Positions 7,412 through 58,699 of a stretch of 64,000 nt of DNA are shown here, one piece after another. The stretch lies in assembly GCA_024403615.1 (NCBI GenBank), contig JAKSRM010000002.1, forward strand, positions 1 to 64,000, given 5' to 3'. The notes below the pieces were generated by a model that worked only from the letters and a program-made list of their open reading frames with translations, had not been told where the DNA came from and made no database searches. This DNA comes from Lachnospiraceae bacterium. GTDB taxonomy: Bacteria; Bacillota; Clostridia; Lachnospirales; Lachnospiraceae. The stretch's first letter is position 1, and the number at the start of each line of letters is the position of its first letter. Both the position numbers and the translations under genes were made by a program.

Positions 7412-7480
7412 TCGAAATAGACCTCCAATATTTTATTTGTGTGAGATTGTACCATATTTAGTAGTCGATAGCAAATAAAA

Positions 7481-7515
7481 ACCACAATTTATGGCGAATT
7501 TCCATAAATTGTGGT
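7481..7515 (-). terminator. Rho-independent terminator of the acidic GH78-like gene
   Basis: A perfect 14-bp stem (7481-7494 with 7502-7515) and 7-base loop, followed on the minus strand by TTTTTATTT. It begins 25 bases past the stop codon at 7540 and separates this gene from nrdR. Confidence 0.9.
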
Positions 7516-7539
7516 CAATATGTTTTATTTTTTGTTCAA

Positions 7540-10500
7540 TTAGATCAGCTGGAATATTTTTTCTTTGATTTCTGCAGCTTTTTCTGCCTCGATTCCCAGA
7601 TTTTCAATAAAATCCAGCGGTTCTGCCAAAACTTTCATATCCGCATTTTGAATCTGTTCTGCCAGTTCCGGGTTAAGTTCTTCAATAATGTCTAAAGAGT
7701 CTTGATACTTCAGAATATCTCCTATGGTACTATTTTCGTTAAACAAATGAATATAATCTTTTGTTGGCATATATTCAAAGTCATAAGTTCCAGCTTCTAA
7801 TTCTTGTTCCGCAATGGTTTCATCCTCGCAAGCAGGAAGAAGAACTTTTGCTGTTGTTCCTTCTGGAATCTCAAAATGCATTTGAATTTTTCCATCTTCC
7901 AAAACTTCCCAACCAGAAACAATCTTTCCTGCTGGTGACTGGAATTCTCCATTTGCATAAATCAGATTGGAGTTTGGCATCGGTGCTAATTCAATCTTCT
8001 TAAATCCCGGTTCCATAGGCTTAATTCCTAAAACATTTGCATATAAGAATTCTGCTACTGCACCATATTCCAGACGATCATCTGCTTCCTGAATCTCGGC
8101 ATCAACAGTTCCGTCTTCCTGGATTGCATCACGGCTGGTCCAGATTGCAGTGTCGGATTCTTCTACGTCGTAAAGCCATCCATAATTATTGATTTCAAGA
8201 AGCAAACGGTATGCCAAATCTTCAAGGCCGTTTTCTGCCAGCGTCTTGCACAGCAGCGGAGTTTCTTCCTCACCGCAAGTAATCTCATAGCAGTTCTCCT
8301 TAAAGTTTGCCTTCAAGTCTTCTATCAAACGTTCTTTGTTATTGAACATACCGGTTCTTAAAGCCGTTATTAATTCTTCCTGAGTAGAAAGGAAGCTTCT
8401 TCCAGAAGCGGTAAAGTATTCATCCAAAACAGCAGCTTTCACATCGTCCGCCAATTTGCTGTACTTTTCTATATCCTCTTCTTTTTCAAGAGCCTGAGCT
8501 GCTTTTGCCACAATGCTAACCGCTTCATAATAATTAGCAGAAGCGATAAATGCTGCGTCCGAATTCTCATCATATGGAAGGAATTCTTCGTTCTCTTTCA
8601 AGTAGCCATCCACACCTGCTGCGATTTCATCCACATATGCCTTCATAGCATCATAATGGTTTTCCAGGCTTTCCTTGTCTCCGTACATGTTATACAGAGT
8701 CCAAGGAACGGTTACTAAACTCTTTCCGCTCTGCTCTTCCAACATATTCTCAATGCCTTCTTTGACATCCATGTTGTAGCAAGCTGCCGCTGTAAATTTA
8801 TCAATCTGCTCTACAGATTCTTCTTGAGATTCTTCTGTTAGATTTTCTTCTGGAAGTTCTCCTAAGAAAATATTTTCCTGACGAGCAAAAATATTATCAA
8901 ATAAACGATTCAGATTTTCATCGGAAGTCTCGATAAAACCGGTCTGGAGGTTTTCTTCTTCCTCCGGTTCTTCCACCAATTCTTCCTCAAGAACTTCTTC
9001 CTCAATTTCTTCCGGTTCCTCTGGAAGCACTACATAGGCAGTAAAATCTTCTGGATTCAGTTCTCCGTCCCATCCACTTACCTTTACATATCTGCCTTTG
9101 AAATAAGTAAAGTGAGTACTTACTACTTCTGGCACACCATCTGCAATATAGGTAAATCCAGGCTGTTCCATTTCTGCGTCTGGATCATCTACATAATTCA
9201 AAACAACCTTGGCACCTTCTGGGAGATTTGAAGTAAAGGAAACATAGCCAGTAAATGGTTTTCCAAAGTCAAGTAAGTCTTCCCCAGCAGCATTTTTAAT
9301 AACTTCTTCCGGTTTTAATTCTTCCAGAACTGAGATTGGCTCTGCATAACGCTCTACTAACGGGATATCCAGGTCAAGCACTTCTACATCTTTATCCGGA
9401 TTGTCTTTCTCTACCCAAAGAAGACGGTTAAATACTTCGCCGTTTCCAATACCGCAAGTTTCAATATCGGAAGCATAATAGCCCCAGGTCTCATCGGTTG
9501 CGATAATGATAACGTTATCTGGTGTTTCTTCTTCAAAGAATTCTTCAGTTTCTTCTATTTCTTCTGATTCTTCTACAACTTCTTCCAGCGTTTCTTCTGA
9601 TTCTTCGGTTGTCTCACCTGCTAAACCAACAGCTGCTGCTCCTGCAAGTCCTTCTGCAGCCTCTAATCCAACCTGTGGTTCTTCTACTTCTTCCGCAATC
9701 TCAGCTTCGGCTTCCACTGCATCAGCTTCTTCTGACTCTTCGTCTACTTCTGGTTCAGCTTCTGCTTCTGATTCTTCTTCCGTTTCTGGCTCTTTTTCAG
9801 TTTCTGGCTCTGCCTCTGCTTCCGGCTCTGCCTCTGCTTCCGGCTCTGCTTCAGCTTCTGGCTCTGCCTCAACTTCAAGTTCCGCCTCTTCTGCTGCTTC
9901 TGCTAAAATGCCATCCAGTTCGTCGTCGAAAAGGTCATCGAACTCTTCGTCAAATTCTTCTTCGAGTTCTTCGTCAATATCATCCACAAATTCCTCTTCG
10001 TATTCTTCAGTTTCTTCTGCGAACTCCTCGACTTCATCCTCAAGAACTTCTTCGAATTCTTCGGTTTCTTCTGCTTCTTCTACAAAGTCTTCTTCAAGTT
10101 CGTCCTCAAAGTCCTCTACGACTTCTTCAAGTTCCTCTTCGATTTCTTCTTCAATTGCTTCTACAGGTTCTTCTTCTGAAACCTCTTCTGCAATTTCATC
10201 GAAACCGGCTTTACTAATGAGCTGTGCAGAAATATCAAAATCCATTTCTTCTACGGAATCTGCTTCTTCTACGGCTTCTTCTACCAGTTCTTCCGGTTCC
10301 AAAACCTCTTCCACAGCCTCTTCTGGAGCGTTTGCCTTCTTTTCCTCTATAATTTCGTTAATGAAGCCATCAAACAAATCATCATTAAACAAATTGTCCA
10401 GATCATCCGGTTCTGCTTCTTCTAAGAATTCTTCTGCTTCTTCCGTTACAGTTTCTATGGTCTCTGGTTTGTCTTCAATAATATCTCCAAGCAGTTCGTC

Positions 10501-11004
10501 CATCTCAGAATCATCCATAAATAAATCATCAAAATCGATGATATCTTCCAGTTTTTCTTTTTTCTTCGGTTCCTCAGAAAAAGTTCCTGGCTTTACGAGA
10601 ATTTCGTCAAATTCCATGGAAAAGTATTCGGTTTCTTCCTCAGTTTGTTCCACTTCAATCACGATTTCTGCTTTTAATGCAAATCGTTCCGGAGCATCCT
10701 CTTCCCAGCCAGTTCCTAAGAAAACATCCAAAGAGTTGGCTTCAGAATCTACGCCATAGTTCAGTTCTTCTGTAATATCAAACTCAAAATACTGAACTCC
10801 TTTTTCCGGATCTTGTTTGTATGGAGTCAGAAACTCGTTGCCGATTCTGGTTCCATTAATATATGCTTCAAACAGCCCTAAGCTTGCGATAAAAAGAGTG
10901 GCCTTTTTTACTTCGTCATCTACAAAGAAGTCTTTATATATTACAGGATTGAATTTATCCTCTTCCTGTGGGCCTATCCATTTTGCAGTCCATTCTCTGT
11001 TCAT
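7540..11004 (-). CDS. Giant acidic GH78 (alpha-L-rhamnosidase) fold protein, likely pseudoenzyme
   Basis: A 1154 aa protein without signal peptide. Residues 1 to about 150 (WTAKWIG...) resemble the GH78 N-terminal beta domain. Residues about 150-500 are an extreme Glu/Asp-rich low-complexity insert. After this the beta domain resumes (TDETWGYYASDI, GNGEVFNR), then LLDFGKPFTGYV, then a second acidic stretch, an alpha-barrel region (PWTLYNMYGDKE) and a C-terminal beta domain (EYGAVAEFLYANVLGI, PGFKKIELAP). At the GH78 acid motif (usually DCPQRDERLGW) there is an unrelated ELPEENLTEES segment. At the general-base motif (usually TIWERW) it has AIWTSRD. I infer a catalytically dead, cytoplasmic scaffold or lectin-like protein. 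The last 70 residues form an added helical tail. It has its own promoter and terminator. Confidence 0.8.
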   Translation of the reverse strand: MNREWTAKWIGPQEEDKFNPVIYKDFFVDDEVKKATLFIASLGLFEAYINGTRIGNEFLTPYKQDPEKGVQYFEFDITEELNYGVDSEANSLDVFLGTGWEEDAPERFALKAEIVIEVEQTEEETEYFSMEFDEILVKPGTFSEEPKKKEKLEDIIDFDDLFMDDSEMDELLGDIIEDKPETIETVTEEAEEFLEEAEPDDLDNLFNDDLFDGFINEIIEEKKANAPEEAVEEVLEPEELVEEAVEEADSVEEMDFDISAQLISKAGFDEIAEEVSEEEPVEAIEEEIEEELEEVVEDFEDELEEDFVEEAEETEEFEEVLEDEVEEFAEETEEYEEEFVDDIDEELEEEFDEEFDDLFDDELDGILAEAAEEAELEVEAEPEAEAEPEAEAEPEAEAEPETEKEPETEEESEAEAEPEVDEESEEADAVEAEAEIAEEVEEPQVGLEAAEGLAGAAAVGLAGETTEESEETLEEVVEESEEIEETEEFFEEETPDNVIIIATDETWGYYASDIETCGIGNGEVFNRLLWVEKDNPDKDVEVLDLDIPLVERYAEPISVLEELKPEEVIKNAAGEDLLDFGKPFTGYVSFTSNLPEGAKVVLNYVDDPDAEMEQPGFTYIADGVPEVVSTHFTYFKGRYVKVSGWDGELNPEDFTAYVVLPEEPEEIEEEVLEEELVEEPEEEENLQTGFIETSDENLNRLFDNIFARQENIFLGELPEENLTEESQEESVEQIDKFTAAACYNMDVKEGIENMLEEQSGKSLVTVPWTLYNMYGDKESLENHYDAMKAYVDEIAAGVDGYLKENEEFLPYDENSDAAFIASANYYEAVSIVAKAAQALEKEEDIEKYSKLADDVKAAVLDEYFTASGRSFLSTQEELITALRTGMFNNKERLIEDLKANFKENCYEITCGEEETPLLCKTLAENGLEDLAYRLLLEINNYGWLYDVEESDTAIWTSRDAIQEDGTVDAEIQEADDRLEYGAVAEFLYANVLGIKPMEPGFKKIELAPMPNSNLIYANGEFQSPAGKIVSGWEVLEDGKIQMHFEIPEGTTAKVLLPACEDETIAEQELEAGTYDFEYMPTKDYIHLFNENSTIGDILKYQDSLDIIEELNPELAEQIQNADMKVLAEPLDFIENLGIEAEKAAEIKEKIFQLI
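9806..9877 (-). repeat. Four 18-bp tandem repeats inside the acidic insert
   Basis: Four copies of an 18-base unit (9806-9823, 9824-9841, 9842-9859, 9860-9877) encode EAEAEPEAEAEPE-type hexapeptides. The first two copies are identical and the others diverge. The region may expand or contract by slippage. Confidence 0.9.
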
Positions 11005-11099
11005 AATTTTGCTCCTATTATTAATGTAAATCCCTTCACAGTGTGAATTTTATTGCCTTTGTATACTTTCCCACGTTAAATCATAAGAATAGTTTTAAC

Positions 11100-11105
11100 A
11101 TTATA
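11100..11105 (-). promoter_or_regulatory. Probable -10 box of the acidic GH78-like gene
   Basis: A perfect TATAAT on the minus strand about 95 bases upstream of ATG 11004. No clear -35 lies 16-18 bases further upstream, so an activator or extended contacts may be needed. The rest of the long leader shows no strong hairpin. Confidence 0.4.
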
Positions 11106-11153: not shown

Positions 11154-11183
11154 CAAAAAACGGGCAGGCTTTTCAGCCTGCCC
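11154..11183 (-). terminator. Rho-independent terminator of groES-groEL
   Basis: A 9-bp GC-rich stem (GGGCAGGCT pairing with AGCCTGCCC, 11162-11183) with a 4-base loop, followed on the minus strand by a run of six T. It lies 46 bases past the groEL stop. Confidence 0.93.
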
Positions 11184-57661: not shown

Positions 57662-58699
57662 TTATACTCTTTCTGCCGTTACTCTTACCCATTCTCCATC
57701 CTGGAAAACTTCGATAAGTTTCAGATTCTTGTTTGCTTCAATGCCATCACGGATTAACTGTTCTTTCACATCCAGAATACCAGAAAGAATCAGATAACCG
57801 CCTTTCTTCAGGTACTGATCCAATGTAGGCAACATCAGTTTAATAACGTCTGCTAAAATATTGACAACAACTACATCATAAGGACCATAACCTTCTTCAC
57901 ATTTATGAAGAGCGATGACCTGATTTTTCAGTTCTTCATTTTCTACAACATCCCCAAGGAAGAAGGTGCTGACTTCCGGGCAGACATCGTTGATTTCAAA
58001 ATTCTCTTTTGCAACTTTTACTGCCTGTTCATCAATGTCTACGGAAGTGATGGTAGAAGCGCCTAATTTAATAGAGCCAATTCCTAAAATACCACTGCCA
58101 CAGCCTAAATCCAGAACCTTATCGCCCTCTTTCATATATTTACGAAGGCCTCTTAAACACAGTCTGGTGGTTTCATGAGTACCAGTTCCAAAAGCCATTC
58201 CCGGGTCAATTCGGATAGTTAATTTCGGCTCCGTTTCTTCTGCGTCACCAGCTCCGCCTTTATTCTCCAAGCCTTCCATATTCTCTGGAATCATTTCCCA
58301 AGTTGGGGCAATCAGAATATCATCTACACGGAAGGGCTTAAAGAATTCCTTCCAGTTATTTTCCCAATCTGCAGAATCCTGTTCTTCTTCCACAAATTCT
58401 ACCGGGTCAATTCCATAAATGTCCGGAGCCTCTGCCAATCCAGCTTTTACGTCTTCAATCAGCTGAGCCGTTTCTTCAACCTTTTCTTCATCGTAATCAA
58501 TAAAGAAGCTTATGGAACAACTGCCATCATCTTCCGGAAGGTCCTTCACCATGGCTGCATATAACTGATTTAATTCTTCGTCCGTCAGCTGAACATTATT
58601 TTCAATCTGAACGTCAACAATATCGTAATCCATAAGAAGGGCGCAGACCATGTCCGCGTCCTTCGTTGTTGTTTTTATCGTGTATTTCGTGTATTTCAT
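57662..58699 (-). CDS. prmA: Ribosomal protein L11 methyltransferase
   Basis: Methylates lysines and the N terminus of ribosomal protein L11. 345 aa: N-terminal L11-recognition domain (about 1-110), then a Rossmann-fold SAM domain with VLDLGCGSGILGIGSIKLGA, PGMAFGTGTHETTRLCL and VVVNILADVI. In Firmicutes it commonly sits between dnaJ and rsmE, exactly as here. Confidence 0.96.
   Translation of the reverse strand: MKYTKYTIKTTTKDADMVCALLMDYDIVDVQIENNVQLTDEELNQLYAAMVKDLPEDDGSCSISFFIDYDEEKVEETAQLIEDVKAGLAEAPDIYGIDPVEFVEEEQDSADWENNWKEFFKPFRVDDILIAPTWEMIPENMEGLENKGGAGDAEETEPKLTIRIDPGMAFGTGTHETTRLCLRGLRKYMKEGDKVLDLGCGSGILGIGSIKLGASTITSVDIDEQAVKVAKENFEINDVCPEVSTFFLGDVVENEELKNQVIALHKCEEGYGPYDVVVVNILADVIKLMLPTLDQYLKKGGYLILSGILDVKEQLIRDGIEANKNLKLIEVFQDGEWVRVTAERV

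Follow-up and report, generated by a model that had tools for sequence, protein, structure and literature searches.

A GH78-derived pseudoenzyme with long acidic inserts in one lineage of a Lachnospiraceae genus

The DNA analysed here (the window) is a stretch of 64,000 nucleotides from Lachnospiraceae bacterium (assembly GCA_024403615.1, contig JAKSRM010000002.1, positions 1 to 64,000). Its minus strand carries, at 7540..11004, an open reading frame (ORF) of 1154 aa with an ATG start and an isoelectric point (pI) of ~4.05, which ORF analysis, Pfam matches and composition together identify as a GH78-derived pseudoenzyme. Judging from sequence comparison, a GH78 α-L-rhamnosidase of the Lachnospiraceae type has here lost its active-site loops, kept the other parts of the fold and gained acidic arms. 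The reading that we favour, with a probability of about one half and with a scaffold role that is partly inferred, is that of a domesticated pseudoenzyme in which the dead fold would serve as the platform for a multivalent, probably disordered arm.

On the 1154-aa protein, each of the four GH78 Pfam families exceeds its cut-off, and GH78 domains are the only Pfam matches above cut-off. The PDB matches are likewise rhamnosidases (3w5m, 6gsz, 6i60 and 2okx), a profile–profile comparison with intact GH78 proteins (hhalign) spans 607 columns with a probability of 100 and an E value of 7e-141, and a search of PHROGs returned no match. By homology over the N-terminal β-sandwich, the concanavalin-like domain, the (α/α)6 domain and the C-terminal domain, the window gene is thus a GH78-derived one. 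The GH78 match is interrupted between residues 102 and 495, and the preliminary description of this gene, in which a GH78 frame was recognised on both sides of an acidic insert, is confirmed in this respect. All features of the gene lie on the minus strand. The first half of the N-terminal β-sandwich (Bac_rhamnosid_N, profile 2-69) occupies residues 1-124 (10633..11004; Pfam match at residues 31-102), and its remainder, placed by alignment and profile comparison, occupies residues 495-572 (9289..9522; TDETWGYYASDIE). These are followed by the Bac_rhamnosid concanavalin-like domain (residues 573-659, 9028..9288, from Pfam), the (α/α)6 domain without its active-site loops (Bac_rhamnosid6H; residues 688-991, 8032..8943, Pfam match 761-991, from Pfam and alignment), the Bac_rhamnosid_C β-domain (residues 993-1067, 7804..8028, from Pfam and alignment) and a C-terminal tail common to intact Lachnospiraceae GH78 proteins (residues 1068-1154, 7543..7803, from alignment and profile comparison). 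An N-terminal domain of ~115 aa, present in the nearest intact GH78 subfamily, is lacking.

The whole protein consists of 31% Asp/Glu (D/E) and carries a net charge of −290, with ~357 acidic residues; residues 103-494 reach 47% D/E and a net charge of −171. The several hundred acidic residues said earlier to have been gained therefore fit the protein as a whole, whereas insert 1, the largest of the acidic inserts, has ~183. The N terminus is not signal peptide-like, in agreement with the cytoplasmic location that had been proposed. However, the intact GH78 relatives also start without a signal peptide, so that its absence is ancestral rather than a change, the cytoplasmic location is inherited, and neither is informative on a new role.

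Orthologues were found in 8 of the 14 genomes of the genus sample, which includes the window's own genome (G000), consists of metagenome-assembled genome (MAG) assemblies and contains several incomplete genomes among the non-carriers. A whole-genome search found none in G001, G006, G007, G008, G012 and G013; in G001, G006 and G007, the stretch between groEL and nrdR holds other genes. The orthologues measure 1734 aa in G002, 1272 aa in G009 and 1242 aa in G011 (joined from two contigs that share 47 identical residues at their overlap), and those of G003, G004, G005 and G010 are cut by contig ends. The G004 copy, the single match in a scan of genome contigs, is identical to one on JAKSRL010000105.1, from a Lachnospiraceae MAG from horse faeces. 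In total, contigs end inside the gene in five of the eight carriers (G003, G004, G005, G010, G011; L034-L040), suggesting that the repeats probably differ from strain to strain or confound assembly from short reads. The recurrence of the architecture in seven other genomes of the genus shows that the pattern is not due to chance.

The loss of the active site was followed in an alignment with 11 intact Lachnospiraceae GH78 proteins, in which seven orthologues cover the sites. The four motifs DCPQRxERLGW, GDWLAxDG, TIWERW and NSLNHY are all present in each of the 11 intact proteins and in none of the seven orthologues. The catalytic-acid motif (DCPQRDERLGW) has given way to unrelated residues or a deletion, being replaced by ELPEENLTEES in the window protein (residues 716-726, 8827..8859). 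At the catalytic base, TIWERWN is represented by a relic, AIWTSRD, in the window (residues 953-959, 8128..8148) and in G004, and the segment is deleted in the other five (G002, G003, G009, G010 and G011). The loop GDWLALDG of the substrate pocket (deleted in the window protein at residues 807-817, 8554..8586) and the rhamnose-binding His of NSLNHYSYG are deleted or replaced in all seven, the latter leaving a relic EADDxLEYG in the window (EADDRLEYG, residues 973-981, 8062..8088) and in G004. Across the clade, no replacement carboxylate is conserved at the base, GDW and NHY segments. In KoRha, residues of these kinds (Trp, Asp and His) bind rhamnosides and are thought to hydrolyse them (PMC4690510). 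Scaffold and active site differ accordingly in the invariant positions kept by the window protein: 18/26 in the N-terminal sandwich, 14/24 in the concanavalin-like domain, 13/24 in the late 6H region and 10/10 in the C-terminal domain, its best-kept part (54-100%). The acid loop, by contrast, retains 2/18, the GDW loop 1/10 and the base region 7/26, and the helices adjoining the acid loop keep 6/19 (32%). Because all active-site segments are replaced or deleted, the loss of rhamnosidase chemistry, and of this chemistry specifically, is well supported by the alignment. The two replacement motifs had been quoted correctly in the preliminary description, and its claim of lost catalysis holds as well, since no catalytic acids persist at shifted positions and the base region is missing entirely from sister species.

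A tree built from 716 columns of the fold places the orthologues in a single clade nested among the intact Lachnospiraceae GH78 proteins, with a Shimodaira–Hasegawa-like approximate likelihood ratio test (SH-aLRT) value of 100 by a quick method and with two rows of unusual composition. The ratio of nonsynonymous to synonymous substitution rates (dN/dS, NG86 method) was computed for three species pairs: the larger regions of the fold give 0.05-0.14 and insert 1, where the calculation was possible, gives 0.11-0.41; the replacement of the acid loop evolves more freely than the fold (0.69 over 36 codons). These values and the tree point to a single origin of the pseudoenzyme in one lineage of the genus and to maintenance of the gene by purifying selection. 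A wider search covered 397 genomes of the family and 392 of the order. Among the matches listed outside the genus, open frames are at most 1161 aa and mostly 720-1000 aa long. No intact enzyme with this insert, which would have spoken against the preliminary description, was found, with 13 intact-type proteins read (L106-L118), the rest judged by frame length and a few partial matches of 1067-1161 aa set aside.

The acidic arms occupy up to three loop positions, and the inserts amount to ~370-880 aa across the orthologues, their length varying widely and their acidity staying high. Insert 1 (residues 125-494, 9523..10632, at the same position in L032-L038) exits the fold in every orthologue between '...ALKAE[IVF]' and '..TDETWGYY', a site that we infer to be a β-hairpin turn of the N-terminal sandwich in the intact proteins; relatives thus keep the insert position, a point that the preliminary description had left for checking. 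Insert 2, placed by alignment, lies in the linker between the concanavalin-like and (α/α)6 domains (residues 660-687, 8944..9027; ~115 aa in G002, absent in G009-G011), and insert 3 stands in place of the acid loop; in the window protein, the shorter acidic stretches are residues 660-687 and the region around 716-740. The window's insert 1 contains amphipathic acidic segments such as DDLFMDDSEMDELLGDII, together with DDLDNLFNDDLFDGFINEII, EEFDDLFDDELDGILAEA and EAEAEP-type 18-bp tandem repeats. A charge–hydropathy estimate calls all inserts disordered. However, it gives the same verdict on parts of the folded core and is weak evidence for this reason; from its composition, insert 1 is probably disordered.

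The arms appear to be built of conserved islands and variable spacers. The inserts of G002 and G005 share 14 near-identical islands of at least 15 residues, which are split by indel-rich E/A/V/P sequence, and bulky hydrophobic residues make up 8% of the indels vs. ~20% of the aligned positions (p about 1e-4). A gap count for G011C/G010C includes a contig end and was excluded from this evidence. In three comparisons of insert residues by class, the acidic and the bulky hydrophobic residues (0.89 each) are the best kept of the larger classes, ahead of polar residues (0.73) and Val/Ala (0.66-0.70). In addition, the hxxhh helix-type pattern occurs 14 times in the window insert vs. 3.4 in shuffles (z 6.3). 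Neither the islands nor the VGGLP modules described below were found in any other protein of the searched genomes. Insert pieces gave matches to the Pfam families Extensin_1 and Sos7, which fell below cut-offs, are probably composition matches and were rejected.

The subclades carry islands of their own. Repeated LVGGLP modules occur in insert 1 of L034, L036 and L033 (G011, G010 and G009) and nowhere else in the searched genomes. Insert 1 of L032 and L038 (G002 and G005) holds, amid acidic sequence, two basic islands: VKKQGFFKKHFKAFDLAKKIGLTL, which is amphipathic and strictly conserved, and TRRMRRWNLELV. These could contact a membrane or a polyanion, or else fold onto the acidic chain itself.

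In the scaffold reading, the dead fold would act as a rigid and possibly oligomeric platform, and the long charged arm, probably disordered, would be a multivalent binding arm. The conserved acidic–hydrophobic islands would act as binding sites ('stickers'), and the E/A/V/P-rich charged spacers would keep the arm expanded and soluble. By analogy with SpmX and PopZ of Caulobacter, the pseudoenzyme may then recruit or organise cytoplasmic partner proteins. A bolder version, which we put forward only tentatively, is a genus-restricted organiser in which the dead GH78 fold and its internal sticker-and-spacer arm (~370-880 aa) would build a cytoplasmic hub or condensate, as a further and independent case after SpmX of a sugar-cleaving fold turned into a cell organiser, here with the arm grown within the fold instead of appended to it.

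Several observations weigh against this reading. The depletion of hydrophobic residues in indels is seen in one species pair only (G002/G005). The enrichment of the hxxhh pattern is moderate in G011 and G003 (z about 3) and near chance in G002, G009 and G010. The islands differ by subclade, with VGGLP modules in G009-G011 and TRRMRRW and KKQGFFKKHF in G002/G005, so that the orthologues share no one partner-binding motif. In the aligned core columns, the window protein has a net charge of −106 vs. −29 expected from intact proteins, and this core acidification is also compatible with a bulk electrostatic role. Finally, an AlphaFold2 model of residues 495-1154, built from two sequences only (the second being L031), reached a mean predicted local distance difference test (pLDDT) score of 38.7 and a predicted template modelling (pTM) score of 0.25. 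It was left out of all fold searches because of its low pLDDT, and scans of viral contigs found no GH78 homologues usable to deepen the alignment.

The main rival of the scaffold reading, which we regard as rather unlikely, is that of a bulk polyanion, in which charge alone matters (as a counter-ion or cation buffer, an electrostatic solubiliser or bristle, or a nucleic-acid mimic) and the GH78 fold is a mere carrier. The insert is ~47% acidic, the net charge of full-length orthologues ranges from −224 to −394, and the acid class is kept in the inserts at the value given above despite their wide variation in length. Moreover, the core of the other orthologues has a net charge of −43 to −87 vs. 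−20 to −29 expected, and all five tested orthologues gained 15-38 acidic residues in the core and lost 9-14, the reverse of intact controls, suggesting that acidification reached the fold too. However, a pure polyelectrolyte needs neither bulky hydrophobic residues kept as well as the acids nor near-identical islands, and ~760 aa of conserved fold would be unneeded. The codon adaptation of the gene towards groEL is only moderate (rank 12/52, and lower without D/E codons), unlike that of an abundant buffer protein, and high expression was rejected on this basis. With a simple pattern, no DxDxDG-like (EF-hand) or GGxGxD (RTX) metal motif was found in any orthologue; together with the hydrophobic–acidic islands, which are not what a featureless polyanion would show, this lends no support to the cation-buffer, nucleic-acid-mimic and S-layer-type roles first suggested. 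The core acidification thus argues for the bulk polyanion and the conserved hydrophobic islands argue against it.

A second alternative, a GroEL-coupled acidic protein that holds clients or prevents aggregation, is improbable. The gene directly follows groEL in G000, G002 and G005, and acidic disordered arms can serve as solubilisers. However, a strong intrinsic terminator (11162..11183, minus strand) separates the upstream groEL from the gene in the window, an electron transfer flavoprotein (ETF)-type gene cluster is the upstream neighbour in G010 and G011, and groEL is kept in species without the pseudoenzyme. A second strong terminator from the same scan follows the gene, before nrdR (7480..7516, minus strand), which is directly downstream or nearby in most carrier genomes. 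Sequence inspection shows an AGGAG ribosome-binding site (RBS) 7 bases before the ATG (11012..11016, minus strand), and the terminators on both sides, combined with the RBS, indicate that the gene is probably its own transcription unit. A TATAAT at 11100..11105 (minus strand), seen by eye and not in the signal scan, is a possible −10 element of its own promoter; no convincing −35 element was found upstream of the gene.

Still less probable is a carbohydrate sensor or lectin, in which a dead GH78 domain would still bind rhamnosides and signal via the acidic arm. The fold and the C-terminal domain are kept, and glycosidase pseudoenzymes can turn into glycan binders. However, the substrate pocket is gone too, with the GDW loop missing and the NHY histidine either substituted or lost, and such residues (Trp, Asp, His) hold rhamnose in KoRha (PMC4690510). 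A decaying pseudogene or an assembly artefact, in which a drifting dead gene would expand its low-complexity sequence by slippage, would account for the lost active site, the short tandem repeats and the contig breaks, and is very improbable given a frame open in all eight carriers and up to 1734 aa long, the low dN/dS of the fold, the RBS and terminators, and the presence of orthologues in genomes that were assembled separately. That the protein is still an active glycosidase whose catalytic residues have moved, for which the many acidic residues that could stand in for the lost acid and the AIW relic in the window might be cited, is just as hard to credit, since the base, GDW and NHY segments are gone from sister species with the rest conserved and the clade shares no substitute carboxylate there.

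Some further observations concern annotation and neighbouring genes. The plus-strand ORFs at 9506-10759 and 9522-10217 of the window (Ser-rich and Leu-rich) are shadows of the GAA/GAG-rich insert that automatic annotation may call. In G006, which has no pseudoenzyme, the interval from groEL to nrdR contains a short radical-SAM-like ORF (CPCACTFCLRQN) and an ORF of the HAD type (L120, 1972-3391). The window gene for PrmA, the ribosomal protein L11 methyltransferase (57662-58699, minus strand), encodes 345 aa vs. a 296-position profile, with a D/E fraction of 0.21 and a pI of 4.26, and may contain a small acidic insertion.

With the GH78 α-L-rhamnosidases (SaRha78A, 3w5m; the Aspergillus enzyme, 6gsz; KoRha; Lachnospiraceae L106-L113), the pseudoenzyme shares the domain order and homology over the fold and C-terminal tail, and with its close relatives the start without a signal peptide. 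Unlike these enzymes, it is devoid of the catalytic acid, the base and the rhamnose-binding loops as well as the N-terminal domain of the nearest subfamily, and it bears the long inserts. SpmX and PopZ are parallels rather than relatives. SpmX joins a lysozyme-like fold to a negatively charged, proline-rich disordered domain and forms an oligomeric scaffold (PMC5347347); the SpmX fold has no detectable activity, and the pseudoenzyme, its active site lost, would likewise reuse a glycoside-hydrolase fold next to a negatively charged, probably disordered region, its scaffold role being proposed by analogy. However, the fold is unrelated, SpmX keeps a catalytic glutamate in its sequence, is membrane-anchored and has known partners, and its acidic region follows the domain, whereas the arm of the pseudoenzyme lies inside it. 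In PopZ, a disordered linker between helices has kept its acidity in evolution, and this acidity tunes condensates (PMC9512792); conserved acidity (a fraction of about 0.29 in PopZ) is a shared feature, as multivalency would be, whereas the PopZ linker is far shorter (78 aa), has more proline and comes with no enzyme fold. Disordered scaffolds of the CsoS2 type also use conserved repeated motifs for assembly, in their case of carboxysomes and with no pseudoenzyme platform (PMC11365436). Our comparison with known systems extended to the open-access literature, where no bacterial glycosidase pseudoenzyme with acidic inserts was found. We know of no sequence relation between CsoS2 and the pseudoenzyme.

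With the intact relatives, the relic of the base in the window and the deletions in sister species all at hand, the steps of a conversion from enzyme to non-enzyme can be followed. It is unusual for a bacterial protein to have grown a large acidic arm from a surface turn within a folded domain, and annotating the window gene as a rhamnosidase would mislead. If the scaffold reading is true, another glycosidase fold would have been reused as a cell organiser, hinting at a new organising system in gut Lachnospiraceae.

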